Assembly: GCF_018263855.1 (NCBI RefSeq)
Contig: NZ_CP073318.1
Span: 5,332,001-5,396,000, forward strand
Direction: 5' to 3'
Origin: Kutzneria sp. CA-103260
GTDB lineage: Bacteria > Actinomycetota > Actinomycetes > Mycobacteriales > Pseudonocardiaceae
Length of the DNA stretch: 64,000 nucleotides
Below the pieces are notes generated by a model that saw only the letters and a program-made list of their open reading frames with translations, had not been told where the DNA came from and made no database searches. The translations under genes were made by a program, and so were the position numbers. Shown here in pieces: positions 18,155-44,979 of this stretch (position 1 is its first letter; every line of letters begins with the position of its first letter).

Positions 18155-18577
18155 GTGCCTCGAGACGAGAACGTCCGCCGGATCCGGTCGGCCGTGACCC
18201 GGCTGTCCCGCCGGCTGCGGGCCGAACGGCCGGCGGACGCCCTGGCAGCGACCAAGATCGCCGTGTTGGCCGAGTTGTGGCGCAACGGCCGGATGTGCGC
18301 CGGCGACCTGGCTTCCCTGCTGCGGGTGCAGCCGCAGTCGCTGACCAGGACGCTGGCCGCGCTGGAGGAGGACGGCCTGATCCTGCGCCGGCCGGACGAG
18401 CTGGACCGCCGGCAGGCGGTCATCGGCATCACCGAGGCCGGCGTGACCGCGCTGTCCGAGGACATGCAGGCCCGGGAACTGTGGCTGGCCAAGGCCATGG
18501 ACATCCAGCTCAGCCCAGCCGAGCGGCAACTGCTGGCCGACGCGGCCGAGCTGATGGATCGGCTGGCCGATGACTGA
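18155..18577 (+). CDS. MarR-family regulator of the ABC exporter
   Basis: This 140-residue winged-helix protein has RMCAGDLASLLRVQPQSLTRTLAALEEDGLILRR as the recognition region and RRQAVIGITEAGVTAL as the wing. It probably represses its own operon and responds to a compound exported by the ABC protein encoded next. The stop overlaps the exporter start by 8 bases (ATGACTGA), so the two are translationally coupled. The GTG start lies directly after the operator repeat and there is no ribosome site, suggesting a leaderless or near-leaderless message. Confidence 0.9.
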   Translation: MPRDENVRRIRSAVTRLSRRLRAERPADALAATKIAVLAELWRNGRMCAGDLASLLRVQPQSLTRTLAALEEDGLILRRPDELDRRQAVIGITEAGVTALSEDMQARELWLAKAMDIQLSPAERQLLADAAELMDRLADD

Positions 18578-21500
18578 GCCGCGGGTGAACCCCATGGGCG
18601 GCAACTGGATCCGCCGCCTGCTGCCGTTCCTGCGGATCCAGCGCCGCAGCCTGGTCCTCACCTTCGCCGCCGCACTGGCCGGCGCCGGTCTGGCCGCGGT
18701 CACACCGCTGCTGGAGCGGCACATCGTCGACGACGTCATCCTCAGCCATCGCTCCCCCTTGCTGCCGTGGCTGATCGCGCTGATCGCGGTCGGCGTGCTG
18801 ACCTTCTTCGCGTCGCGGATCCGCCGCTTCCGGGCGGCCAAGGTGGTGCTGGAGGTCCAGTACCAGATCCGCAACGCGGTGCACGAGCAGTTGCAGCGCC
18901 TGGACATCGGCAGCCACCAGTCGATGCCGACCGGGCAGCTGGTGTCCCGGATCTCCACCGACGCCGGCGTGATGGTCCGGGTGCTGTCCTACTTGCCGGC
19001 GCTGAGCAGCAACGTGTTGCTGATCGTGGTGTCGCTGGTGGTGATGGTCGTGCTGTCGCCGCTACTGGCGGTGATCAGCGCGCTGGTGGTGCCGGCGCTG
19101 GTTTTTGTGGTGTACAAGATGCGCCGCCAGGTCCGACCGGCCACTTGGGACAGTCAGCAGCGCGGCGCCGAGGTGACGCAGACCGTCACCCAGACCGTGT
19201 CCGGCATCCGGGTGGTCAAGGCGTTCGGCCAGGAGGACCACGAGCTGGACCGGTTCGTCGAGGCCAGCCAACAACTCTACGGTGCACGCATCCGATCCGT
19301 CCGGCTGATCGCCAAGTACCAGCCGCTGCTGCAGGCGATCCCAGCGATCGGGCAGGTGCTGCTGCTGGCCCTGGGCGGCTGGCTGGCGCTGCACGGCAAC
19401 ATCACCGTCGGCACCTTCCTGGCCTTCGCCACGTACTTGGCCCAGGTCATCGGGCCGGCGCAGATGTTCGCCGGGATGATCAGCGCCACCCAGCGGGCCG
19501 GCATCTCCGCGCGGCGGATCTTCGACCTGCTGGACTCGGTGCCGGCGGTCACGGACAAGCCGGACGCCGAGCCATTGCCGCCAGTGCGCGGCGACATCGC
19601 CATCACCGACGCCACTTTCGGCTACCTGCGCTCGGAACCGGTGCTGGACGGCTTCACGTTGCACGTCGAGCCCGGTGAAACCGTGGCCCTGGTGGGCACT
19701 TCCGGCTCCGGAAAGTCCACCGTGGCCATGCTGCTGGCGCGATTCCACGACGTGCAGGGCGGCAGCGTCAAGATCGACGGAGTCGACGTCCGGGACGTGA
19801 CGGTGGATTCGCTGCGCAGCCAGGTCGGCATGGTGTTCGAGGAGAGCTTCCTGTTCTCCGACACCGTGCGGGCCAACATCGGCTACGGCCGGCCGGACGC
19901 CACCGACGCGGAGATCGAGGCGGCAGCACGAGCGGCGGAGGCGCACGGCTTCATCCAAGCGCTGCCGGAGGGATACGACACGCAGGTCGGCGAGCGCGGG
20001 CTGACGTTGTCCGGCGGGCAGCGGCAGCGAATCGCGCTGGCCCGGGCTCTGCTGACCGATCCGCGGATCCTGGTGTTGGACGACGCGACCAGCGCGGTGG
20101 ACGCCCGGGTCGAGGAGGGCATCCACGCCACGCTGCGCCGGGTGATGGTCGACCGCACCACGCTGCTGATCGCCCACCGCCGTTCCACCCTGCGGCTGGC
20201 GAGCCGGATTGCCGTGGTGGACAAGGGACGTGTGGTCGCGCAGGGCAGTCACGAGGAGCTGATGGCCGCCAGTCCGCTGTATCGGCGGCTGCTGGCCGGC
20301 ACCGACGAGGACATCGACGTCGAGGTGACCGAAGGCGTCACCGCCGAGGCCTGGCAGGCGGATGGCGGCAAGCGCAAGCAGTTGGCGATCATGGAGACGC
20401 CCAGGGAGATGGCCGCCGGCATCGCCGCGTTGCCACCGGCCCGGGACCGCGCCGAGGTCGACACCGTCGGCGACGACGACCCGCACTTCTCCTTCCGCCG
20501 CTTCGTGTGGCGGCACCGCACGGCGCTCGGGCTGGGTCTGTTCCTGGTGTTGTTGGACGCCGTCGCGACCGCCGCCGGCCCGTACTTCTCCCGTGAGGGC
20601 ATCGACAACGGCGTGCTCAACGGGTCCAGCGCGGCGCTGATGCTGTCGGCCCTGGTCTTCTTCGCGGTGGTGCTGGGCGATCTCGCCGTGTCGGTGGCCA
20701 TGACGCTGGTCAACGGCCGCACCGGTGAGCGGCTGCTGATGGCGTTGAAGGTCCGCGTGTTCAAACGGCTGCTCAGGCTGCCGGTCTCGTTCTACGACCG
20801 GGAGATGGTCGGCCAGGTCATGACCCGCATGACCACCGACACCGACTCGTTCTCCTCCTTGCTGCAGAACGGTTTGCTCCAGGCCGCGGCCAGCGTGCTG
20901 ACCTTCACCGGCGTGTTCGTGGCGATGGCCGTGATGAACATCGAGCTGACCGGGGTGGCCGCGCTGGTGCTGATCCCGTTCGTGCTGGCCACCACGTTGT
21001 TCCGGCGGCTGGCCAAGGGCAGCTATGTGCAGGCCCGGGAGCGGATCTCCGACGTCAACGCCGGCTTGCAGGAAAGCCTTTCCGGCGTAAGGGAATCTCA
21101 GGCGTTCGGGCAGCAGCAGCGCCGGCACAGCGAGTTCAAGCGGCTCACCCGGGGCTACCTGGACGCCAGGATGAAGGCCCAGCGGCTGATCTCCGCGTAC
21201 TTCCCGTTCCTGGAGTTCCTGTCCGACCTCGGCGCGGCGCTGGTGCTCGGCGCGGGCTACTTCCTCATCGCCCGCAACGAGTTGACCGCCGGCGAGCTGA
21301 TCGCGTTCGTGCTCTACCTCGGCCTGTTCTTCGCCCCGATCCAGCAGCTGTCCGGTGTGTTCGACGACTGGCAGCAGGCACGGGTGTCGATGCAGCGGAT
21401 CAACGACCTGCTGGCCGAGCCCGATCTCACACCGACCGCCGCCCAACCGACCCACCCCGGCCGGCTGACCGGCCGGATCATGGTGCGGGACCTGTGGTTC

Positions 21501-22232
21501 CGCTACCCCGGCGTGGACACCGACGTGCTGCGGGGCGTGAATCTCGTTGTGGAGCCCGGGGAAACGGTCGCGCTGATCGGCGAGACCGGGGCCGGCAAGT
21601 CCACTGTGGTCAAGATGCTGGCCCGGTTCTACGACCCGGACCGGGGATCCGTCACGATCGACGGCTTCGACCTGCGCGAGCTGGATCCGCCGGAGTTCCG
21701 CCGACAGCTGGGTTACGTGCCGCAGGAGGCTTTCCTGTTCCCCGGCACCATCCGGGACAACATCGCCTACGGCCGGCCCGAGGCCACCGACGCCGAGGTC
21801 GAGGCGGCCGCGCGGGCCATCGGCGCGCACGACTTCGTGGCCAAGCTGCCGGGCGGCTATCTGCACGAGATGGGTGAGCGGGGCGGATCCCTGTCCGCCG
21901 GGCAGCGGCAGCTGTTGTGCCTGGCCCGGGCCCAACTCGTCGATCCGGTGCTGCTGTTGCTGGACGAGGCCACCGCCAATCTGGACCTGGCCACGGAATC
22001 CGTCGTGTCCGCCGCCATGTCCACGCTGGCCGAGGGCCGCACCACGATCCTGGTCGCGCACCGCTTGCAGACCGCTCGCGCCGCCGACCGGATCGTGGTG
22101 ATGGACGCCGGGCGCGTGGTCGCCGTCGGCACTCATGAGCAGCTGCTCGCCGACAGCGACCACTACGCTCGACTCTGGCTGGCCTTTGAAACCAGCACAG
22201 CCGCCGTCACACCAGCGTCGCGTCCAGCGTGA
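18570..22232 (+). CDS. Fused two-unit ABC exporter (TMD-NBD-TMD-NBD)
   Basis: At 1220 residues this is a complete exporter in one chain: two copies of a six-helix membrane domain plus ATPase. ATP site 1 has Walker A GTSGSGKST (376-384) and LSGGQ, but its Walker B is LVLDDATSAVD, so the catalytic Glu is Asp505. ATP site 2 has Walker A GETGAGKST from residue 1004, an altered signature LSAGQ, and an intact Walker B with Glu1133 (LLLLDEATANLD). This is the asymmetry of heterodimeric drug or lipid exporters, here in fused form; in most bacteria the halves are separate genes. MarR control upstream suggests an inducible efflux function. The tail overlaps the convergent OsmC gene by 26 bases. Confidence 0.92.
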   Translation: MTEPRVNPMGGNWIRRLLPFLRIQRRSLVLTFAAALAGAGLAAVTPLLERHIVDDVILSHRSPLLPWLIALIAVGVLTFFASRIRRFRAAKVVLEVQYQIRNAVHEQLQRLDIGSHQSMPTGQLVSRISTDAGVMVRVLSYLPALSSNVLLIVVSLVVMVVLSPLLAVISALVVPALVFVVYKMRRQVRPATWDSQQRGAEVTQTVTQTVSGIRVVKAFGQEDHELDRFVEASQQLYGARIRSVRLIAKYQPLLQAIPAIGQVLLLALGGWLALHGNITVGTFLAFATYLAQVIGPAQMFAGMISATQRAGISARRIFDLLDSVPAVTDKPDAEPLPPVRGDIAITDATFGYLRSEPVLDGFTLHVEPGETVALVGTSGSGKSTVAMLLARFHDVQGGSVKIDGVDVRDVTVDSLRSQVGMVFEESFLFSDTVRANIGYGRPDATDAEIEAAARAAEAHGFIQALPEGYDTQVGERGLTLSGGQRQRIALARALLTDPRILVLDDATSAVDARVEEGIHATLRRVMVDRTTLLIAHRRSTLRLASRIAVVDKGRVVAQGSHEELMAASPLYRRLLAGTDEDIDVEVTEGVTAEAWQADGGKRKQLAIMETPREMAAGIAALPPARDRAEVDTVGDDDPHFSFRRFVWRHRTALGLGLFLVLLDAVATAAGPYFSREGIDNGVLNGSSAALMLSALVFFAVVLGDLAVSVAMTLVNGRTGERLLMALKVRVFKRLLRLPVSFYDREMVGQVMTRMTTDTDSFSSLLQNGLLQAAASVLTFTGVFVAMAVMNIELTGVAALVLIPFVLATTLFRRLAKGSYVQARERISDVNAGLQESLSGVRESQAFGQQQRRHSEFKRLTRGYLDARMKAQRLISAYFPFLEFLSDLGAALVLGAGYFLIARNELTAGELIAFVLYLGLFFAPIQQLSGVFDDWQQARVSMQRINDLLAEPDLTPTAAQPTHPGRLTGRIMVRDLWFRYPGVDTDVLRGVNLVVEPGETVALIGETGAGKSTVVKMLARFYDPDRGSVTIDGFDLRELDPPEFRRQLGYVPQEAFLFPGTIRDNIAYGRPEATDAEVEAAARAIGAHDFVAKLPGGYLHEMGERGGSLSAGQRQLLCLARAQLVDPVLLLLDEATANLDLATESVVSAAMSTLAEGRTTILVAHRLQTARAADRIVVMDAGRVVAVGTHEQLLADSDHYARLWLAFETSTAAVTPASRPA

Positions 22233-31720: not shown

Positions 31721-32776
31721 TCACTGACACGAGCGGGTGACCAGGGCGGCCGCGTAGGCATGCAGCCCGAGGCCCTGCCCCCAAGGCTGGATGCGGTCGT
31801 CACGAATGACGGAATACCCGAACGGCACGAGTTGTAACACGGTGCCGGCGCTGGTCCTGGTCACGGCGCCGTCGGCGGCCACGTACGGGTGCAGCCCGCC
31901 CATGGCTCGCCAGGCCGATTCCCCGGTCACCGCAGGTGAAACGCCCAGCGCGGCGGCCCGGAACAGCGCGGCGGCGATGCCGGCTGTGGCGGAGGTCTCG
32001 ATGATTCCCCGGGTTTCCGGGTGCCCGTCGACCAGCACGTCCCACACGCCGTGGGCCGGTTGGTTTCCGGCCAGCGCGGCCAGTTGGGCGGAAAGAAGTT
32101 CACGGATGTGACCGTGGCTCGGATCGGCTTCGAGGATTTCGACACCGGACAAGGCGATCCAGGCGTTGGCCCGGCCCCAGAAGCACCAGACCGTCTCGCC
32201 GCGGTGCGAGCCGTGGGCGAACAGACCGGTGGCCGGATCGCGCAGCACGTCGGCGTGCGCGAGCCACTGCCTTGCCGCCTCGGCGATGAGCTCCGGCCGT
32301 CCCAAGGCCTGTCCGCACTGGACGAGGAACACGCCGGCCATGAACGCGGTGTCGGCCCAGACACCGCCGGGCCAGTGCTCCAGCGCTCCCGGCCCGGTCC
32401 GCTCGGCCAGCCACGACAGCAGCTGCTCGCAGGCGTCGGCGTAGCGGCGCTCGCCGGTCTCCTTGTACAGCCACGCGCAGGCCGCGCCGGGAATGATCGA
32501 ATTGACGTGATCAGGCGCTATGCCCTGCCGGAGGTGATTGTCCACATAATCGACCACGAAGGGCGGCAACGGATCCCCGGCGGCCGAGGCCAGCCGCAGC
32601 AGGCCGAGCAGCACCACGCCCTCGCCCCAGAACCAGCGGCGCAGCCCCATCTCCGCCGCGCGCCGGCCGATCCGCCGGCCGGTGTCGGCGAGAACGTCAA
32701 CGGTCAAAACCGAAGGATCCACCGGCGGCCGCAGCGGTTCGGCGTGCTCGGCCGAGCTCGGGTCGAGTCCGGTCAC
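31721..32776 (-). CDS. GH88/GH105-type unsaturated glucuronyl/galacturonyl hydrolase
   Basis: This 351-residue (alpha/alpha)6-barrel protein resembles YteR/YesR-type GH105 enzymes, which hydrate the 4,5-unsaturated uronic acid left at the end of oligosaccharides by polysaccharide lyases. Conserved stretches include RRWFWGEGVVLLGLLRL, GGVWADTAFMAGVFLVQCG (with the likely catalytic Asp), and WCFWGRANAWIALSGVEIL. It has no signal peptide, so it should work in the cytoplasm. The GTG start overlaps the stop of the large upstream gene (GTGA), so the two proteins are made together. A hairpin follows the gene. Confidence 0.85.
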   Translation of the reverse strand: MTGLDPSSAEHAEPLRPPVDPSVLTVDVLADTGRRIGRRAAEMGLRRWFWGEGVVLLGLLRLASAAGDPLPPFVVDYVDNHLRQGIAPDHVNSIIPGAACAWLYKETGERRYADACEQLLSWLAERTGPGALEHWPGGVWADTAFMAGVFLVQCGQALGRPELIAEAARQWLAHADVLRDPATGLFAHGSHRGETVWCFWGRANAWIALSGVEILEADPSHGHIRELLSAQLAALAGNQPAHGVWDVLVDGHPETRGIIETSATAGIAAALFRAAALGVSPAVTGESAWRAMGGLHPYVAADGAVTRTSAGTVLQLVPFGYSVIRDDRIQPWGQGLGLHAYAAALVTRSCQ

Positions 32777-35127
32777 GGCCCCTCCCAGTCCAGCGACAGT
32801 CCTTTGTACGTCACACCATCAGACCAGAACACCGGCTCCGCCGGGGCGGGATCGCCGACCACGCACACCCAGGCCGTGCCGGGACCGTTGGGCCGCAGCT
32901 CCTGGTAGGCGTCCGGACCGGTGGTGACGATCCGCGCGCCGCCCTCGCAGGCCAGCGCCACGATGCCGGCGCCGCGACGGCCGATCGTCCACACCCCGCG
33001 CTGTTCCCAGGAGTCCAGTGTGGACAGTGGGAACCAGGCGTGGGTGTAGCCCATCGGGTCGTCCGGCGGGATCCGGTACAGGGCCAGCACCACGTCCCGG
33101 AACTGCCGGGCCCGGGGCAGGATCCGGTTGCCGGCCCAGGCGTTGGGCCGGGCCGAGGAGCTGGTCGACGAGTTCGGCGCGTGGGTGACGTAGACCTGCG
33201 TCTCCGACCCCAGCGTGGCGCCCCAGACGTGCTCCTGGAGCCCGGGCAGGCCGGCTCGGTAATCCTCCACTGTGGACAACATCACGTCGGACGTCTTGTA
33301 CACCACGATGTCCGAGTGGTAAGGCCGCGAGAGCAGGTCGTGCTCGAAGCGGTACTCGCCCGCCGAGCTGATCCGCACCAGCTCCCGCGCCTCGGGCGCC
33401 GCCGGGAGCTGGTACTTCACCGCGGTGGCCAGTGCCGTCGCCGGCAGCACGGCGTTGTTCAACGCGCCCATGCCGTAGCACAACCACAGGATCGGGGCGG
33501 TCTCCTCGAACCGTGACGACCGCACGGTGTTCACGTACGACCGGCCGTGCGCGGCCCCGTTGACGCCCCGCCACGACGTGACGTGCAACCCGGTCAGGAT
33601 CCGGTCCAGTAGCACGCGGGCGTCGGCCACCAGCGACGGCTCCCCGGCGAACTCCACAATGGACACCAGGGCCAGCGCGTCGATGGCGAGGTAGGCGTTG
33701 GAGTTGAACTCGCTGAAGCCGCCGGCCAGCCGGCGCCGGATCCACTCCGCCGCCAGCTCGTGGCCGTGCGCGGCGTGGTCCGAGCCGGTCCAGCCGGTGT
33801 TGCCGAACACCTCACCGGGGAACAGCGAGCCGGCCAGCAGCTCGGCGGTGTGCCACACCAGCTGGTGGTTCTCGGTGAAGTAGCACATGGCGTCCAGGCC
33901 GGGCTGGTCGATCCAGTACTTGAAGCCCAGCAGCGCGGCCCGCACCTCGTCCCGCAGCCCTGGATCCCAGTGCTCGGCCCCGACGCGGTGCAGCAGGGTG
34001 ATCAGCCCGACCGCCTCGAAGTCGGCGCAGTCGGCCCGGCTGGCGATCATCCACAGCGACCGCTCCAGGGCCTCGGCACGCACCCGGCCGGCGGCGAGGG
34101 CGGTCGCCACGCTCGGCGTGGTCGTCTGCACGTGCGCGAGCAGTTCGGCCCGCCATTGTTCCGGCGAGCCAACGGGTTCCGGCCGGTAGCGCGGCGGCAG
34201 CACCGCGATCGGGAACTCCCGGAACACCGGCGAGCGGTCGTCGTCCACCGACACCCGCAGCACCACCTCGCCGCTGGCCAGCATCGACGCCGACCCCACG
34301 GCCCCTTCGGCGTCCTCGCCCAGATCGCCCAGATCGACCAGCCGCGCGGTCGCCCGGCCATCGGTCAACGTCACGACCTCGCGGCCGACGCGGAGCCGGG
34401 CATCAGCGGGACCGGTCAGCTCCACCGCGCCGTCGACCGTGCCCCAGGTCGGCGTGCCGACCGCGGACAGGATCCGCTCCGCCTCGGCGGCCACCCGTTC
34501 GTCCGCACCGGGGCTGGGAATCACCACCCGCACCGGCAGGCCGCCGACCCGCAGCCGCACGACCTGGCGGCACTCGCGGAAGCCGACCTGCCAGGACGTC
34601 ACCACGACCTGGGAGATCCCGGACGGCAGCCAGACCCGCACCTCGTGCTCGGCCGGCTCCATGTAGGTGACGGTGTCCGCGTGCAGCAGCAGTTCACCGT
34701 TGACGTGCAGCAACACCGGGCCGGTGCTGGCCACCTTCAAGGTCCGCCATTCGGCCTGGTCTATCTCGAAGGCCGTGCCGGCGACGGCGGTGCGGTAGGT
34801 CGGCGTGAAGCAGAATTCGCTCCAATCGACCAAACCGTCCATTCCGGTGTGAATGCGACGGAATTTCGGGCCTTCTACGACTTCGGGCGGCGGCTGGTCG
34901 ACCGGCAACGGCCGGTTCAGATAGAGCCGGCGCTTCAACGGGGTGACGTCCGGGCCGTTGGTGAGCACCCACCGGCCGTCGTCTCCCCAGGGCGAACCCG
35001 TGGCGGCCACACCGAGATCCGCGTCGGGCACCGGCGCGGCGATCACCGGCCGCACCACCCAATCGAGTACCGATCCCATTACTGACAGTCGATGAGTTGT
35101 GCGTCCATCCGTGGCCACGATGCCCAT
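32773..35127 (-). CDS. Large (alpha/alpha)-toroid-like protein, putative polysaccharide lyase
   Basis: I do not recognise a named family with certainty. The 784-residue protein has an N-terminal beta-rich region (1-310), a helical middle like the incomplete toroids of heparinase/alginate lyases (about 330-560) and a beta-sandwich end. The middle has family-like motifs YFTENHQLVWHTAELLAG and FSEFNSNAYLAIDALALVS. Asn-His in ENHQ, Tyr-containing HGRSYVN and RPYHSD are plausible catalytic residues. No signal peptide is present. The stop overlaps the GH105 start, and GH105 enzymes act on lyase products, so a lyase role is the best guess; a hydrolase is possible. The start could instead be the ATG at 35079 (MGSVLDW). 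Confidence 0.6.
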   Translation of the reverse strand: MGIVATDGRTTHRLSVMGSVLDWVVRPVIAAPVPDADLGVAATGSPWGDDGRWVLTNGPDVTPLKRRLYLNRPLPVDQPPPEVVEGPKFRRIHTGMDGLVDWSEFCFTPTYRTAVAGTAFEIDQAEWRTLKVASTGPVLLHVNGELLLHADTVTYMEPAEHEVRVWLPSGISQVVVTSWQVGFRECRQVVRLRVGGLPVRVVIPSPGADERVAAEAERILSAVGTPTWGTVDGAVELTGPADARLRVGREVVTLTDGRATARLVDLGDLGEDAEGAVGSASMLASGEVVLRVSVDDDRSPVFREFPIAVLPPRYRPEPVGSPEQWRAELLAHVQTTTPSVATALAAGRVRAEALERSLWMIASRADCADFEAVGLITLLHRVGAEHWDPGLRDEVRAALLGFKYWIDQPGLDAMCYFTENHQLVWHTAELLAGSLFPGEVFGNTGWTGSDHAAHGHELAAEWIRRRLAGGFSEFNSNAYLAIDALALVSIVEFAGEPSLVADARVLLDRILTGLHVTSWRGVNGAAHGRSYVNTVRSSRFEETAPILWLCYGMGALNNAVLPATALATAVKYQLPAAPEARELVRISSAGEYRFEHDLLSRPYHSDIVVYKTSDVMLSTVEDYRAGLPGLQEHVWGATLGSETQVYVTHAPNSSTSSSARPNAWAGNRILPRARQFRDVVLALYRIPPDDPMGYTHAWFPLSTLDSWEQRGVWTIGRRGAGIVALACEGGARIVTTGPDAYQELRPNGPGTAWVCVVGDPAPAEPVFWSDGVTYKGLSLDWEGP

Positions 35128-35241: not shown

Positions 35242-36366
35242 GTGCGCACTCCCCGTCCGCTGCCGGCGGCGATCGCCTTGGTCGGGGTGGCGGCGGTCGT
35301 GACGGTGGCGGTGTGGCGGCCCTGGGAAGGCTCCGCCGACGCGGCCAGCGGCCCGCCCCAGATCACCGTGTCCCGAAGCCAGTGCGGCCAGGGGTGGACC
35401 GACGCGAAGACCGGCCGGCAGACGTTCACGCTGCGCAACACCGGGGACGCGGCGGCCGAGGTCGACCTGGTCGAGCTCGGCAGCAACAAGGTGTACGGGG
35501 AGCTGGAGGGCCTGGGCCCGAACACCAGCGCGCCGATGGACGTCCAGCTGGGCGCCGGCCAGTACGCCTTCCGCTGCCTGATCGAGGACACCGACGCGAT
35601 CACTGGTCCGAGTGTCACGCTGACGGGTGACTCGAAGAGCGGTCCGGCCGCGGTGGCCGTGACTAAGAACGACATGCTGCCGCTGGTGAAGCAGTACGAG
35701 GCCGCCGTCGCCAGCGGCGTCGCCGACCTGGCCGCCAAGACCGACAAGCTGCGCGGCGACGTGGACGCCGGCAATCTCGACGCCGCCCGCGCCGACTGGC
35801 TGCCGGCGCACCTGGCCTACAACTCCCTTGGCGCGGCCTACGACGCCTTCGGCGACTTCGCCGACAAGATCGACGGCTCCGACGCCGGCTTCCACCCGCT
35901 CGAGAAGGGCTTGTGGCACAACGCCGCCGCCGGTGACCTGAAGCCGATCGCCGACCAGCTGGCCGACTCCGTGCGCGGCCTGGCCGACGACCTGCCCAAC
36001 GAACAGGTGGATCCGAACGATCTCGGGCTGCGGGCCCACGAGATCATGGAGAACGCCCTCCAGTTCGAGCTGACCGGGGAGAACGACCAGGGCAGCGGCA
36101 CCAGCCTGAACACCGCGCTGGCCAACCTCGACGGCACGGCCAAGGTGCTAGCCATCCTGGACCCGGTGCTCCAGCCCCGCTACCCCGACCTGCCCCAGGT
36201 GCGGAAGTGGGCGGACCGGACCCGCGCGCTGCTGACCGCGCACCAGAACACCCCGGTCGGCCAGCTGGACCAGGCCACCCGGGAACAGCTCAACGGCGCC
36301 GTCGGCGAACTGCTGGAGAAGCTCGCCCCGGTCGCCGCCATCCTCGAAGTTCGGAGAGATTCATGA
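35242..36366 (+). CDS. efeO: Iron uptake lipoprotein/periplasmic protein EfeO
   Basis: This 374-residue exported protein has an N-terminal membrane anchor or signal (about 9-25), a cupredoxin-like domain (about 40-130) and a C-terminal imelysin/M75 domain. The M75 metal region contains [23 protein letters not shown] and [10 protein letters not shown]. EfeO binds ferrous or ferric iron outside the cell and passes it to the EfeU permease. The GTG start has CAGGAG upstream. The stop overlaps the efeB start (ATGA), so both are coupled. EfeU, usually the first gene of the efeUOB operon, is absent here; the gene upstream is the divergent lyase-like one. Confidence 0.92.
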
Positions 36367-37556
36367 CCGGCCTCGGCCGCCGTTCCTTCCTGCGCGGCGC
36401 GATCGTCGGCGCCGGCGCGGCGGCGGTGACCGGGCTGTCGGTGTCCGCCGACGCCGCCACCTCGAACTCCGTTGCGTTCCACGGGGTTCACCAGGCCGGC
36501 ATCGACACCCCGCAGCAGAAGCAGGCCGTCTTCGCCTCGTTCGACGTGATCGCGGCGGACAAGGGCGAGCTCACCGATCTGCTCCAGACGCTGACCGACC
36601 GGGCCCGGCTGCTGACCGCCGGCGGCGCGCTGCCGCCGCTGGGGATCACGGCCCCGCCGGCCGATTCCGGGGTGCTCGGACCGGACATGCCGGGCGACGA
36701 CCTGACCGTCACGGTCGGCCTCGGCGCGTCGCTGTTCGACGACCGGTACGGCATCAAGGAACGCAAGCCGGCCAAGCTGACGGCGATGAAGGAATTCCCC
36801 AACGACAGCCTGGACGACAGCCTGTGCCACGGGGACCTGAGCCTGCAGCTGTGCGCCACCGAGACCGACACCGTGCTGCACGCGCTGCGGGACATCGCCC
36901 GGCACACCCGCGGCGGGATGCAGCTGCGCTGGCGGGTGGACGGCTTCCAGAGCCCGCCGCGGCCCTCGGGCACGCAGCGCAACCTGATGGGCTTCAAGGA
37001 CGGCATCGTCAAGCCGGTGCCGGCCGACTTCGACAAGCTCGTGTGGGTCGGCAAGGGCAACGGCGAGCCGGCCTGGACCGAGGGCGGCAGCTACCAGGTG
37101 CTGCGCCAGATCCGGATGCTGGTCGAGTTCTGGGACCGGGTCTCGGTCAGCGAGCAGGAGAACATGTTCGGCCGCCGCCGGGACTCCGGCGCGCCGCTGG
37201 ACGGCAACACCGAGACCGACGTGCCGAACTACCCGGCCGACCCGACCGGCGGCGCGATCCCGCTGACCAGCCACATCCGCAAGGCCAACCCGCGCACCAC
37301 CGACACCGCGGACAGCCAGTTCCTGCGCCGCGGCTACAACTACGACAAGGGCACCGACTCGGTCGGGGACCTGGACATGGGGCTGTTGTTCTGCGGTTAC
37401 CAGCAGGACATCGCCCGGCAGTTCGAGGCCGTGCAGACCCGGCTGGCCGACGAGCCCCTCGTCGACTACATCCGGCCGGTCGGCGGCGGTTATTTCTTCG
37501 CGCTTCCCGGTGTTCGGGACAGCAACGACCACTTCGGCCGGTCGTTGCTCGCATGA
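36363..37556 (+). CDS. efeB: Tat-exported DyP-type heme peroxidase EfeB
   Basis: This 397-residue peroxidase has a twin-arginine signal ([27 protein letters not shown]), so it is folded with heme in the cytoplasm and exported. DyP motifs are [12 protein letters not shown] (the GxxDG with the distal Asp) and the Arg/Phe region [25 protein letters not shown]. The last third, [12 protein letters not shown] and [22 protein letters not shown], is also family-typical. EfeB works with EfeO in iron uptake, oxidising Fe(II) or acting on heme. The ATG overlaps the efeO stop. A phospholipase-type lipoprotein gene follows 20 bases later and may share the transcript. Confidence 0.93.
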
Positions 37557-39198: not shown

Positions 39199-39235
39199 GA
39201 ACGCCCCGCTCCTTTTTCTGAGGAGTGGGGCGTTC
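39199..39235 (+). terminator. Rho-independent terminator after the phospholipase gene
   Basis: GAACGCCCCGCTCCT pairs with AGGAGTGGGGCGTTC (one G-U pair) across TTTTCTG and is followed by TTCT. This is the clearest terminator in the window and closes the efeO-efeB-phospholipase unit. Confidence 0.9.
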
Positions 39236-39326
39236 TTCTGTGCCCTTACCGCCACTCACGCTAGGCAACGACTCCATCACCGGCGAAGATGGGAGGTCCG
39301 GGGCGAGGGCGATCGGAACGGTGGTC

Positions 39327-42161
39327 ATGGGCGGCGGGGGAAATCCGGGGACGGCCGTCCGGCTGCTGGGCCGGATCCAGGTGCTCAACGGGGCCACGGC
39401 GGTCGACCTGGGCCCGTCCGGGCCGCGCTCGGTGTTCGCGGTGCTGGCCTTGCGCGCCAACACAACCGTGACCCTGGACGAGCTGATCTCCGCCCTGTGG
39501 GGCGAAACGCCGCCGCGGACCGCCGAGGGTGGCATCTACTCGCACGTCTCGACACTGCGCAAGGCGCTGGAACCGGGCCGTGGCCGCAAGGACGAGCCGC
39601 GGGTGCTGACCAGCAGTCGCGCCGGGTATTGCCTGCTGCTGCCACCGGATTCCGTGGACGCGTTCCGGTTCCAGACCGCGGCCGCCGAGGCCCGGCGCTG
39701 TTGGACGGCCAACGACTTCGACGGCGCGCTGATCCACTGCGACCGCGCGCTGCGGGAGTGGGGCGGGCCGCCGCTCGGTGGGGCGGCCGGGCCGTTCGCC
39801 GAGGCCGAGCGGTCCCGCCTGGAACTGCTGGAGCTGGATCTCGCGGAGCTGCGGTGCGCGGCACTGCTGGAGACCGGGGCCACCGGCGGCGCGGTCGCCG
39901 CGCTGGCCACGCTCACCGCCCAGCACCCGTTGCGGGAACGGCTGCACGAGCTGCTGATGCTGGCCCTGCTGCGCACCGGGCGGCCAGCCGAGGCAATCGA
40001 GGCGTACCAACGGATTCGGGAACGTCTGGTCGAGGAACTGGGCGTGGAACCGGGCCCGGCGCTGCGTCAGATGCACGAGCGCGTGCGGGCCGGCGAGGAC
40101 GCCGAGCCGACGGCTTTCCCACTCCCCCGCGTGACGCCCGCGCAGCTGCCGCACGGCGTCGCGGAATTCACCGGTCGCGAGGCCGAACTGGCACGGCTGG
40201 GCGAGCTGTGCGCGGAGGCGTCCGGCGCGGCGCACGGCGGATCGGTGGTGATCTCGGCCATCGACGGCGCGGCCGGCGTCGGCAAGACCGCGCTGGCCAT
40301 CCACCTCGCGCACCGGGTCTCCGGCGATTTCCCGGACGGCCAATTGTTCGTCGACCTCCGCGGTTTCGACCCGCACTTCTCGCCGGTCACGCCGGAGGAC
40401 GCGCTGGGCCATCTGCTGCGCGGCCTCGGCGCGCAGGCCGACACCCAGCACACCGGGTTGGCCGCGCAGTCGGCGCTGTACCGCTCGCTGCTGGCCGGCC
40501 GTCGACTCCTTGTGGTGCTGGACAACGCCGTCAGCGCCGAGCAGGTCCGCCCGCTGCTGCCGGCCTCGCCGGGCTGCCTCGCCCTGGTGACCAGCCGCAA
40601 CCGGCTGGCCGGGCTGGTGGCCCGGGACGGCGCGACCCGGCTCAGCCTCGACGTGCTCCAGCCGGCGGAGTCCCTGGCGCTGCTGCGCCGCGTTCTCGGG
40701 TCCGCGCGGGTGGCGGTCGACGTCGAGGACGCGCGGGCCCTGGCCGAGTTCTGCGGCCATCTGCCGCTGGCGCTGCGGATCGCCGCCGAGCGGGTCATCG
40801 GCCAGCGCGGCATCGCGCATCTCGTGGAGGAGTTGCGGGCGGAGCGGGACCGACTGGACGCACTGTCCATTTTGGATGATGAGTCCTCGGTGCTCCGGAC
40901 CGTGTTCTCCTGGTCGTACCAGTCGCTCAAACCCGAGGAGGCCCGGGCGTTCCGGCTGCTCGGTCTGCACCCGTCGGTGGAGTTCGGCGTGACCGAGGCG
41001 GCCGTCCTGCTCGACGTCCCGGTGCCGGACGCCCGGCGGCTGCTGGCCGGGCTGGCCCAGTCGCACCTGCTGGAGCCGGTCGCCCGCGATCGCCACCGGT
41101 TCCACGACCTGCTGCGGATCTACGCCGCCGAGTGCGCGGAGCGGGACGAGGCCGGGGTGGCCATCGACCAGGCCGTCCGGCGGCTGGCGCGCTGGTGCCT
41201 GGCCTCGGCCGCCGCCGCCCGCGAGGTGCTGACCCCGGAACTCGGCCCGATCGAGCTGGAGCCGCCGGAGCACCCGCCGTTCGCCCCCAACGGCTACGAG
41301 GACGCGCAGGCCTGGACCAATCGTGAGCTGGCGGCCCTGGCCGACGTGCTGCGGCTGGCCGTGGACCGCGGCCTCGACGCGTACGCGGCCAAACTCGCCA
41401 GCGCGCTGGGCAGCCTGTGCCACTGCACCAGCCGCTGGCCGGAATGGCTTCGCATAGCCGAAATCGGGCTGGCCGCGGCCGAGCGGGCCGGCGACCGGCT
41501 CAGCGTGGCCCGCCTGCACAACGACGCCGGGGTCGTGCACCACTTCCTCGGGCACGGCGACCAAGCCGTGGCCTGCCACCAGAAAGCGGCCGGTCTGCTG
41601 ACCGAGCTGGCCGAACTGGGCGAGGGCAACCAGGAGGCCATCGCGGCCAACCTGGCCGTGGCCTACCTGATGATGGGCCTGCGGCTGGACGCGCTGCCGC
41701 TGTTGCAGGACGCCCTGGCGATCGCCCGCCGGCAGGACAGCCTGTTCGTCGAGGCCGCCGTCTCCGAAGCGCTCAGCGCCGTGCTGTCCAGGCAGGGCCG
41801 GCACGACGAGGCGATCGAGCACGGGCTGCGATGCGTGGCCCTGGCCCGGCAGACCGGGTCCGAGCACATGCTCGCGCACGGCATGGCCCAGATCGGCGGG
41901 GCCTGCCGGCGAGCCGGCCGGCTGGACGAGGCGATCAAGCATCTCGACGACGCCCTCCAGCTGTGGCGGGGCCTGGGCGACCGCTGGGGCGAGGTGCACA
42001 GCCGGCATTCCCTGGCCCGTGCGCTCCACGAGGCCGGCCAGCCGGACCGCGCCCGCCTGCTGCTCACCGAGGCGCTGGACCTCGTGCGGACGTCCGGACG
42101 CCCCGCCGTCTACGAACGCGAGGCCGGTGCGATCCGTGCGCTGTTGGCGACAATCGGCTGA
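39327..42161 (+). CDS. SARP/AfsR-type regulator with NB-ARC and TPR domains
   Basis: This 944-residue regulator has an N-terminal winged-helix OmpR-type DNA-binding domain (about 5-95) and a bacterial transcriptional activator domain (BTAD, about 100-245). An NB-ARC/STAND ATPase follows, with P-loop GAAGVGKTAL near residue 316 and Walker B LLVVLDN. The C-terminal half is TPR repeats. Such proteins activate antibiotic or development genes after ligand or phosphorylation signals. The start is not certain: ATG here begins MGGGGNPGTAVRLLGRIQ, and a GTG two codons upstream is possible. No biosynthetic cluster lies beside it in this window. Its stop is one base from the convergent kinase stop. Confidence 0.9.
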   Translation: MGGGGNPGTAVRLLGRIQVLNGATAVDLGPSGPRSVFAVLALRANTTVTLDELISALWGETPPRTAEGGIYSHVSTLRKALEPGRGRKDEPRVLTSSRAGYCLLLPPDSVDAFRFQTAAAEARRCWTANDFDGALIHCDRALREWGGPPLGGAAGPFAEAERSRLELLELDLAELRCAALLETGATGGAVAALATLTAQHPLRERLHELLMLALLRTGRPAEAIEAYQRIRERLVEELGVEPGPALRQMHERVRAGEDAEPTAFPLPRVTPAQLPHGVAEFTGREAELARLGELCAEASGAAHGGSVVISAIDGAAGVGKTALAIHLAHRVSGDFPDGQLFVDLRGFDPHFSPVTPEDALGHLLRGLGAQADTQHTGLAAQSALYRSLLAGRRLLVVLDNAVSAEQVRPLLPASPGCLALVTSRNRLAGLVARDGATRLSLDVLQPAESLALLRRVLGSARVAVDVEDARALAEFCGHLPLALRIAAERVIGQRGIAHLVEELRAERDRLDALSILDDESSVLRTVFSWSYQSLKPEEARAFRLLGLHPSVEFGVTEAAVLLDVPVPDARRLLAGLAQSHLLEPVARDRHRFHDLLRIYAAECAERDEAGVAIDQAVRRLARWCLASAAAAREVLTPELGPIELEPPEHPPFAPNGYEDAQAWTNRELAALADVLRLAVDRGLDAYAAKLASALGSLCHCTSRWPEWLRIAEIGLAAAERAGDRLSVARLHNDAGVVHHFLGHGDQAVACHQKAAGLLTELAELGEGNQEAIAANLAVAYLMMGLRLDALPLLQDALAIARRQDSLFVEAAVSEALSAVLSRQGRHDEAIEHGLRCVALARQTGSEHMLAHGMAQIGGACRRAGRLDEAIKHLDDALQLWRGLGDRWGEVHSRHSLARALHEAGQPDRARLLLTEALDLVRTSGRPAVYEREAGAIRALLATIG

Positions 42162-43113: not shown

Positions 43114-44979
43114 ATGGATTCGTCCTGGATGTTCATGCGCGGCGTGATGGCTCGGGCGGACGCCCCGAACCAGGTGCGCCGCGGCACGCTGCGCCGGGTG
43201 CTGGAGTTCGCCCGGCCGCACTGGGGAAAGCTGGCCGTGTTCCTCGGTCTGACCGTGGTGGACGCGTTTCTCGCGGTCAGCACGCCGGTGCTGGCCGGCC
43301 GGGTGGTGGACGCGATCATCAACCGGGCCGCGCTGGGCCTGGTGATCGGGCTGGCCGGGCTGATCGCCCTGGTGGCCGTGGTCAGCGCCGGCACCAGCCT
43401 GGTCGAGCGCTGGCAGTCCTCGCGCATCGGCGAGGGCCTGATCTACGACCTGCGGCGCGCGGTGTTCGAGCACGTGCAGCGCATGCCGGTCGCGTTTTTC
43501 ACCCGCACGCGCACGGGTGCGCTGGTCAGCCGCCTGAACAACGACGTGATCGGCGCGCAGCGGGCGTTCACTTCTTCACTGTCAGGTCTGGTCACGAACG
43601 TCATCCAGCTGGCCCTGTCGCTGGTCGTGATGCTGTCGCTGTCGTGGCAGGTCACGGTGCTGGCCCTGGTGCTGCTGCCGGCGTTCCTGCTGCCGGCGCG
43701 GCGGATGGGCGCGCGGATGGCTGGGCTGGAGCGGGAGGCCGCCGGGCTGAACGCCGGCATGACCAACCAGATGACCGAGCGCTTCTCCGCTCCCGGGGCC
43801 ACGCTGGTGAAGTTGTTCGGCCGTCCCAAGGCCGAGGCCGAGGACTTCGGCGACAAGGCCCGGCGGGTGCGGGACATCGGCGTGCGGACCGCGATGGCGT
43901 CGCGCTGGTTCCTCACCGGCATGTCGCTGCTGCCGACCATCGCCCAGGCCCTGGTGTACGGGGTCGGTGGCTGGCTGGCGCTGACCGGTCAGCTCGAAGC
44001 GGGCACCGTCGTGTCGCTGGCGCTGCTGCTGACCCGGCTCTACACGCCGCTGACCGCGCTGGCCAACGCGCGGGTGGACATCATGACCGCACTGGTGTCG
44101 TTCGAGCGGGTCTTCGAGGTGCTGGACGTGCGGCCGATGATCGTGGAGTCGAACCGGCCGACCCCGCTGCCCGCCGGGCCGGTGTCGGTGGAGTTCGACG
44201 ACGTGCGGTTCGGCTACCCGTCGGCCGACCAGGTGTCGCTGGCCTCGCTGGAGTCGGTGGCCAACCTGGACACCCGCGGCGGGCAGGAAGTGTTGCACGG
44301 CATCAGCTTCCGGGCCGAGGCCGGCCAGCTGGTGGCCCTGGTCGGGTCCTCGGGCGCCGGCAAGTCGACCATCGCCTCGCTGGTGCCGCGGCTCTACGAC
44401 ACCGTCTCGGGCGCGGTCCGACTGTCCGATGTGGACGTTCGCGAGCTGTCGTTCGACGACGTCCGGGACGCGGTCGGCGTGGTCACCCAGGACGGGCACC
44501 TGTTCCACGACAGCATCGAGGCCAACCTGCGGTACGCGCGGCCCGAGGCCAGCGCCGAGGAGCTGTGGGACGCCATCGAGCGGGCCCGGCTCGGCGACCT
44601 GATCCGGAGCCTGCCCGACGGCCTGGAGACCGTGGTCGGCGAACGCGGCTACCGGCTGTCCGGCGGCGAGCGGCAGCGGCTGACCATCGCCCGGCTGCTG
44701 CTGGCCCGGCCCCGCGTGGTGATCCTGGACGAGGCGACCGCGCACCTGGACTCCGAGTCGGAGGTCGCGGTGCAGGCCGCCCTGACCGAGGCGTTGCAGG
44801 GCCGGACCGCGCTGGTCATCGCGCACCGGCTGTCCACCATCCGGGCCGCCGACCAGATCCTCGTCATCGAGGACGGCGAGGTGGTGGAGCGGGGCACCCA
44901 CACCTCGCTGATGGCTGCCGGCGGCCGTTACGCGGAGTTGCACAACACGCAGTTCCGCGAGGAGCCGACTGCGGTCTAA
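43114..44979 (+). CDS. ABC transporter half-exporter (TMD-NBD)
   Basis: This 621-residue protein has a six-helix membrane domain (about 45-330) and an ATPase domain with Walker A GSSGAGKST near residue 412, signature LSGGE and Walker B VVILDEATAHLD (D539-E540), all intact. It should therefore work as a homodimer, in contrast to the fused exporter at 18570. The stretch VAFFTRTRTGALVSRLNND is the first coupling-helix region. A slightly long insert precedes Walker A (SLESVANLDTRGGQEVLHG). Cargo is unknown. The ATG has GGGGGA just upstream. The 3' end overlaps the tiny convergent gene by 4 bases. Confidence 0.92.
   Translation: MDSSWMFMRGVMARADAPNQVRRGTLRRVLEFARPHWGKLAVFLGLTVVDAFLAVSTPVLAGRVVDAIINRAALGLVIGLAGLIALVAVVSAGTSLVERWQSSRIGEGLIYDLRRAVFEHVQRMPVAFFTRTRTGALVSRLNNDVIGAQRAFTSSLSGLVTNVIQLALSLVVMLSLSWQVTVLALVLLPAFLLPARRMGARMAGLEREAAGLNAGMTNQMTERFSAPGATLVKLFGRPKAEAEDFGDKARRVRDIGVRTAMASRWFLTGMSLLPTIAQALVYGVGGWLALTGQLEAGTVVSLALLLTRLYTPLTALANARVDIMTALVSFERVFEVLDVRPMIVESNRPTPLPAGPVSVEFDDVRFGYPSADQVSLASLESVANLDTRGGQEVLHGISFRAEAGQLVALVGSSGAGKSTIASLVPRLYDTVSGAVRLSDVDVRELSFDDVRDAVGVVTQDGHLFHDSIEANLRYARPEASAEELWDAIERARLGDLIRSLPDGLETVVGERGYRLSGGERQRLTIARLLLARPRVVILDEATAHLDSESEVAVQAALTEALQGRTALVIAHRLSTIRAADQILVIEDGEVVERGTHTSLMAAGGRYAELHNTQFREEPTAV

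Follow-up and report, generated by a model that had tools for sequence, protein, structure and literature searches.

What is the function of the protein whose gene overlaps the start of a GH105 gene in Kutzneria sp. CA-103260? The pair lies in a stretch of 64,000 nucleotides (contig NZ_CP073318.1, positions 5,332,001 to 5,396,000; hereafter the window) of an 11.6 Mb genome assembled as a single contig, and an earlier note made from the letters alone had proposed an undescribed polysaccharide lyase coupled to a GH105 enzyme. The lyase candidate, P1, is encoded on the reverse strand at 32773..35127 (784 amino acids, ATG start, stop codon at 32773-32775) and is followed on the same strand by a gene for an unsaturated uronyl hydrolase of the GH105/GH88 family at 31721..32776 (351 amino acids, GTG start). 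The TGA stop of P1 and the GTG start of its partner share four bases as GTGA (32773..32776), so the 4-base overlap described earlier was borne out, and a GGAGG is found just upstream (32785-32781). We confidently assign the predicted 351-residue product to GH105: it matched PF07470 at 154.4 bits (Pfam cut-off 26.6), its best PDB sequence match was 3qwt, a 'putative GH105' (E 1.5e-28), and Asp142, which we take to be catalytic, was invariant in 45 aligned sequences. An NCBIfam match to BglB stayed below the cut-off (159.6 vs 420). We regard P1 as a candidate uronyl eliminase, either an oligouronide lyase or a dehydratase. It very probably makes a 4,5-unsaturated uronide by one of these two actions, and our preferred reading, at a probability of about 0.55, is that it acts in the cytoplasm as an oligouronide lyase, probably an exo-acting one, of the class that combines a toroid with an antiparallel beta-domain.

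P1 seems to be a member of an enzyme family without a name in the searched libraries, in agreement with the earlier failure to place it in a known lyase family. No Pfam or NCBIfam family was matched. PDB sequences gave no match at E <= 10 with the single sequence or with a 58-row profile, and only one match, at chance level (E 1.9), with the profile of residues 316-784. The 58 rows are P1 and 57 of the 70 loci described below, the rest (L009, L012, L013, L015, L026, L028, L041, L042, L048, L058, L059, L075 and L077) being near-copies, partial or broken. A Pfam scan of these rows returned nothing credible (best: PA14 in 5 rows, E 0.0044), nor did Pfam hold a credible family for six distant P1 relatives or four plasmid-borne ones, and the best PHROGs match of P1 had an E of 0.23. 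Concerning particular lyases, Pfam detected in P1 neither Hepar_II_III_C or a related profile (PL12/15/17/21 heparinase II/III type) nor PF02278, hhalign gave a probability of 0.1 against 6 PL8 proteins, and a motif search of L099-L102 returned no Asn-His and Ser-Tyr-His strings of the heparinase kind. Profile and structure searches yielded no confident match of P1 to a non-lyase family. We found no description of the family in the literature; CAZy was outside this search and may hold an entry.

The predicted fold gives the main indication of function. The AlphaFold model (pLDDT 90.1 for whole P1) consists of an N-terminal beta-sandwich (residues 16-197; 34537..35082), a helical toroid (about residues 318-582; 33382..34176) and a C-terminal antiparallel beta-domain (about residues 583-784; 32776..33381), all encoded on the reverse strand; the toroid was delimited from AlphaFold secondary structure and Foldseek, and the C-terminal domain from the model and structural alignment. 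The toroid-like middle anticipated from the sequence is thus present in the prediction. By structural alignment the N-terminal domain is most like that of GH2 enzymes such as beta-glucuronidases (VIA-align Z 9.3-10.4 over 117-129 residues, root-mean-square deviation (rmsd) 2.7-3.7, among the matches listed), and a GH31 and an anti-sigma-factor domain are in the same match list. Because this domain dominated the fold search with whole P1, residues 316-784 were folded alone (pLDDT 88.9). With Foldseek, all 8 PDB matches of this part at E <= 0.001 were enzymes of this fold that act on uronates, namely lyases of PL35, PL33 and PL12 and dermatan sulfate epimerase. With VIA-align, the best match was GAGase VII (Z 10.7, 377 residues, rmsd 5.9), spanning both domains as did PL12 (Z 10.2) and PL17 (Z 10.1), and the range from Z 10.7 down to about 8 comprised PL35, PL12, PL17, PL8, PL21 and others; as fold evidence, a Z of 8-10 has moderate weight at most. 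As modelled, residues 316-784 show the toroid plus antiparallel beta-domain of the PL33/PL35/PL12 fold class, with low TM-scores.

D366, D369, E419, N420, H421, E473, S476, Y479, R529, Y531, Q631 and W664 were invariant in 58/58 rows and in 14/14 more diverse rows, and H696 was kept in 57/58 and 14/14. The strings ENHQ, HGRSYVN and RPYHSD singled out in the earlier note are all in the translation; RPYHSD proved variable among relatives. ENHQ (residues 419-422, 33862..33873) carries N420 and H421, proposed as the carboxylate-neutralising residues; Y479 (33691..33693) is, from its spacing, the proposed catalytic Tyr; and HGRSY (residues 527-531, 33535..33549) holds R529 and Y531, its H527 being replaced by Gln in 6/14 diverse rows. 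The key residues of PL33 are N238, Y291 and H444 (PMC11848413). For the catalytic set of PL33/PL35 (toroid Asn and/or Tyr plus beta-domain His), the possible counterparts in P1 by sequence position are the invariant N420 and Y479 and, in the beta-domain, the variable H633 or the nearly invariant H696. We considered H633 as the counterpart of H444, since it follows the Tyr by 154 residues vs 153, and rejected it as not strictly conserved. In BcGDH, a GH154 glucuronate dehydratase, Ala changes at N176, N177, Y229, R285, Y289 and five other positions abolish activity (PMC12269599). The N-Y and Y-R spacings are 59 and 50 residues in P1 vs 52-53 and 56 in BcGDH. By sequence, P1 has the Asn-Tyr part common to PL33 and GH154, and its R529/Y531 look more dehydratase-like.

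Is the pairing with GH105 specific to Kutzneria? A scan of genome contigs with P1 gave 70 loci, which record titles and the tree assign to Actinomycetota (55) and Anaerolineae/Chloroflexi (15). Neighbours were counted in flanks of at most 10 kb, often shorter, and labelled by the best phmmer match at E <= 1e-8; since one contig (L020) ends 82 bases past P1 and others are short, the counts are minima. GH105 was found in 44 of the 55 actinomycete loci and not seen in 11, so the pair is conserved well beyond this genome. Other neighbours were KduI-like in 35, KduD-like in 30 (a count that may include other short-chain dehydrogenases/reductases, SDRs), IclR-type in 27, KDPG-aldolase-like in 16, KDG-kinase-like in 14 and CE15-like in 3. 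A solute-binding protein was present in 44 and each permease in 48. Checks on single representatives gave 320 and 362 bits for KduI (cut-off 250), 225 for the aldolase (cut-off 156) and 322 for KduD, below its cut-off of 339; the kinase was a PfkB and the transporter protein an SBP_bac_1. The start codon of GH105 nearest to the P1 stop was at -14 to +3 bases in 38/44 paired loci, and at exactly -4 in 10/44, although taking the nearest possible start biases this count towards short gaps. In the background, KduI was above cut-off in 1/198 sampled actinomycete genomes, namely that of the window; such rarity places the KduI-P1 link far beyond chance. Neither GH105 nor KduI was found in the 15 Anaerolineae loci with the same flanks and labelling, where solute-binding proteins numbered 9, permeases 7 each, sulfoquinovose-isomerase-like proteins 5 and acetyl-xylan-esterase-like proteins 6. 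In three of these loci (L065, L072 and L073) the P1 relative directly precedes a protein like the sulfoquinovose isomerase SftI (320 bits vs a cut-off of 700 in L072), with an ATP-binding cassette (ABC) transporter and a fructose-6-phosphate-aldolase-like protein.

Alphaproteobacterial plasmids repeat the actinomycete arrangement. Nine regions, picked among the annotated ones of 199 plasmid records, were read: GH88 was present in 8/9, kduI in 4/9, kduD in 3/9, GH28 in 4/9, a sugar ABC transporter in 7/9 and a TRAP transporter in 1/9, while the P1 relative was annotated 'hypothetical protein' in 9/9. They are not nine independent cases, because two come from Shinella and four from Rhizobium with operons that resemble each other. 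The region from the archaeon Haladaptatus, one of the nine, had no GH88, kduI, kduD, transporter or GH28 neighbour. The Rhizobium plasmids L123, L128, L129 and L131 carry a P1 - GH88 - GH28 - ABC operon, suggestive of rhizobial use of pectic oligosaccharides; the GH28 neighbours make an oligosaccharide of the pectic kind (galacturonic acid) a possible substrate there. A gene like CE15-type glucuronoyl esterases is in the clusters L043 (by PF22244), L036 and L052 (by similarity), a hint of esterified uronic acids. The lack of a transporter beside the pair, noticed earlier, holds for the window and not as a general trait. Of the substrates then envisaged, short and imported or endogenous, an imported oligosaccharide is now favoured, since in most relatives P1 is accompanied by a sugar ABC transporter; an endogenous glycan is less likely on the same ground. 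No signal peptide was seen on P1 or GH105, again as stated earlier, judging by sequence and one hydropathy value only rather than by a signal-peptide program.

In 17 P1 genomes searched for two lyase families, PF07940 was above cut-off in 4 and PF02278 in 5. Neither of these two was found in seven P1 genomes of 1.1-1.5 Mb (L035, L036, L037, L040, L041, L043 and L047), which are metagenome-assembled genomes (MAGs) or assemblies of actinobacteria, probably from freshwater. As all seven keep GH105 and KduI near P1, P1 is there the leading candidate for unsaturated-uronide formation.

Several observations weigh against an oligouronide lyase. The TM-scores of the 8 best Foldseek matches were just 0.29-0.44 by query length, the two-domain VIA-align matches covered 339-406 residues at an rmsd of 5.3-7.6 Å, and two endoglucanases (Z 8.7 and 8.5) matched the toroid only. 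H633 is Tyr in 3/58 rows and Thr or Gln in 4/14 diverse rows, and the N, Y, R and Y that are invariant in the toroid are reminiscent of GH154 glucuronate dehydratase. The downstream enzymes are also not constant. KduI was sought in the 31 genomes without KduI near P1, many of them draft assemblies: it was above cut-off in 5/9 actinomycete genomes with GH105 but without KduI near P1, and not in the other four (L021, L024, L027 and L039), in 3/8 actinomycete genomes whose P1 locus shows no GH105, and in 3/14 Anaerolineae. PF07470 was sought in the same 8, out of 11 such actinomycete genomes, and in the same 14 of the 15 Anaerolineae, and passed its cut-off in 2/8 and 4/14. Several P1 genomes thus showed no GH105 or KduI at all, and in some organisms P1 seems to do without these partners, as would suit an exo-lyase that is independent of GH105 or an enzyme with another product.

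The resemblance of the conserved toroid residues to the active site of GH154 makes a dehydratase of that type a serious rival, though in our view the less likely of the two. P1 would then remove water across C4-C5 of a saturated non-reducing-end uronic acid and so prime the oligosaccharide for GH105, the pair replacing a classical uronidase. BcGDH works with a GH88 enzyme in this manner and loses activity upon changes in the residue set given above (PMC12269599). N420, Y479, R529 and Y531 follow the BcGDH order at similar spacing, and VIA-align also matched BcGDH itself, as entries 9o4u (Z 7.9) and 9nwf (Z 7.7), over 233 residues of the toroid at an rmsd of 4.4. DUF2264 proteins, presumably GH154 as judged here from motifs, carry NNW and GRSLTY in 11/14 loci, these motifs having been targeted by the script. 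The two-domain lyases, however, match more of the P1 model and rank higher, an argument of little force because BcGDH has one domain only. No PF07470 match whatever was obtained in 5/8 searched actinomycete genomes without adjacent GH105, so that a dehydratase product would be without a known taker there. Moreover, P1 showed no profile-profile similarity to DUF2264; as just 11 DUF2264 proteins were compared (from 14 loci; L104, L105 and L111 were dropped for want of an open frame passing the motif filter), a distant kinship may still exist. The proposal of a polysaccharide lyase stands in part: the earlier note was correct on the unusual partner and mostly correct on what it is, as the fold matches a lyase class, while lyase and oligosaccharide dehydratase are not separated by these data.

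An improbable identity for P1 is that of a uronyl C5-epimerase, or of a toroid-fold glycoside hydrolase, in the same pathway, with the unsaturated ends made elsewhere. In its favour, the fold matches include dermatan sulfate epimerase 1 (Foldseek E 3.3e-4, VIA-align Z 9.5), the N-terminal domain is GH2-like, two endoglucanases match the toroid, and some P1 genomes do have other lyases, including two PL8-family matches in the Kutzneria genome; against this stand the seven small genomes, which keep GH105 and KduI beside P1 without PF07940 or PF02278, even if other lyase families may be present in them. Beside some P1 genes only the transporter is seen, and none of these partners accompanies P1 in Haladaptatus, but accidental adjacency to GH105, or a structural sugar-binding role, deserves hardly any credence given the recurrence of P1 with GH88/105 in two phyla and its invariant pocket-type residues.

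Returning to the preferred oligouronide lyase, the genes of the relatives outline how it might act. The sugar ABC transporter seen beside them would import a uronic-acid-containing oligosaccharide. P1 would take the C5 proton of the uronic acid and break the C4-O bond to leave a 4,5-unsaturated uronide, with Y479 possibly acting on C5 and N420/H421/R529 holding the carboxylate. The co-translated GH105 would free the unsaturated uronide as 5-keto-4-deoxyuronate, the release reaction of its family, and KduI, KduD, KDG kinase and KDPG aldolase, whose genes were seen in relatives, would feed central metabolism. We tentatively extend this to cytoplasmic oligouronide enzymes that would form an undescribed family spanning phyla. 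Their active site may combine features of lyases with those of the GH154 dehydratase (N-H / Y / R-x-Y on a two-domain lyase fold), and with co-translated GH105 they might form a two-step uronidase with which a complete ABC-P1-GH105-KduI-KduD pathway begins in both Actinomycetota and Alphaproteobacteria. If true, a first step of uronide use has gone unrecognised in soil actinomycetes, small-genome (probably freshwater) actinobacteria and rhizobia, and the uronic-acid use of these organisms would become predictable from their genomes. The P1-GH105 pair would also offer a way to ask how one fold picks chain breaking or water removal.

P1 relatives were found in Actinomycetota, Anaerolineae, Alphaproteobacteria and one haloarchaeon, hence in at least two bacterial phyla, and they are sparse. 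In Kutzneria buriramensis and Kutzneria sp. 744, to which this genome is close, the P1 proteins match at 88 and 86% identity. P1 occurred in 7/397 sampled genomes of its own order, its own genome included and one match being marginal (E 1e-3); a profile search of 396 genomes of the phylum found it in 6, of which 4 had distant relatives only, matched outside the N-terminal domain. The distant actinobacterial relatives L088-L093 have no N-terminal-domain match, and several have lipoprotein-like or twin-arginine-translocation-like starts by eye. Only 2 of the 199 plasmid records obtained by tblastn covered 80% of P1; most were from Rhizobiaceae, others from Pseudosulfitobacter, Pannonibacter and Haladaptatus. 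In a tree of 58 P1 proteins built by a quick method, the label 'GH105 adjacent' changed 6 times vs a shuffled mean of 18.4, with the truncated L020 labelled as without GH105, and this is consistent with an old P1-GH105 linkage in Actinomycetota followed by repeated loss. L036, labelled a Bifidobacterium breve MAG, groups in this tree with uncultured actinobacteria, and its label is doubtful.

In the Kutzneria genome itself KduI and KduD are not linked to the pair. Queries from relatives for the sugar importer, KduI, KdgA, KdgK and IclR had no match within the 64-kb window, and the KduD query hit two SDR genes, with identities of 31 and 26%. The window has two ABC genes, at 18570-22232 and at 43114-44979; in both, membrane and ATPase domains are fused, and their distance from the pair exceeds 8 kb. 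Near 8.466 Mb the genome carries KduI together with relatives of KduD (57% identity) and IclR, and it has six GH88-family matches, the GH105 of the pair included. Beyond P1, Imelysin-family and DyP-peroxidase genes stand in a row at 35242-37556, which we take to resemble an EfeO-EfeB iron pair. They are followed by a phosphoesterase-family protein (PF04185, 37559-39184) and a BTAD / NB-ARC / TPR regulator (39225-42161), presumably of the type often named AfsR or SARP.

Among known systems, the PL26 rhamnogalacturonan exolyase, composed of beta-sandwich, toroid and C-terminal domain and feeding GH105, is comparable in layout but absent among the Foldseek and VIA-align matches listed. PL17/PL15 oligo-alginate lyases come near the proposed role of P1, being intracellular exo-lyases that process imported oligouronides (PMC12336832; Z 10.1 for PL17 in VIA-align); P1 differs in lacking the Hepar_II_III_C domain and in sitting with GH105 and KduI genes. 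The PL35/PL33/PL12 lyases (GAGase II 8khv, BtPL33HA and heparinase III), top structural matches, share the toroid and antiparallel beta-domain, and PL33 has the toroid Asn and Tyr in comparable order (N238 and Y291). P1 departs from them by its extra N-terminal beta-sandwich, the lack of a visible signal peptide, no PDB profile match at E <= 10 and a candidate beta-domain His, H633, that is not strictly kept. BcGDH is single-domain, has R-x3-Y in place of the R-x-Y of P1, and presumably belongs to a group, DUF2264, without a profile match to P1; what it shares with P1 is the toroid, the N..Y..R..Y residues and a GH88 partner.

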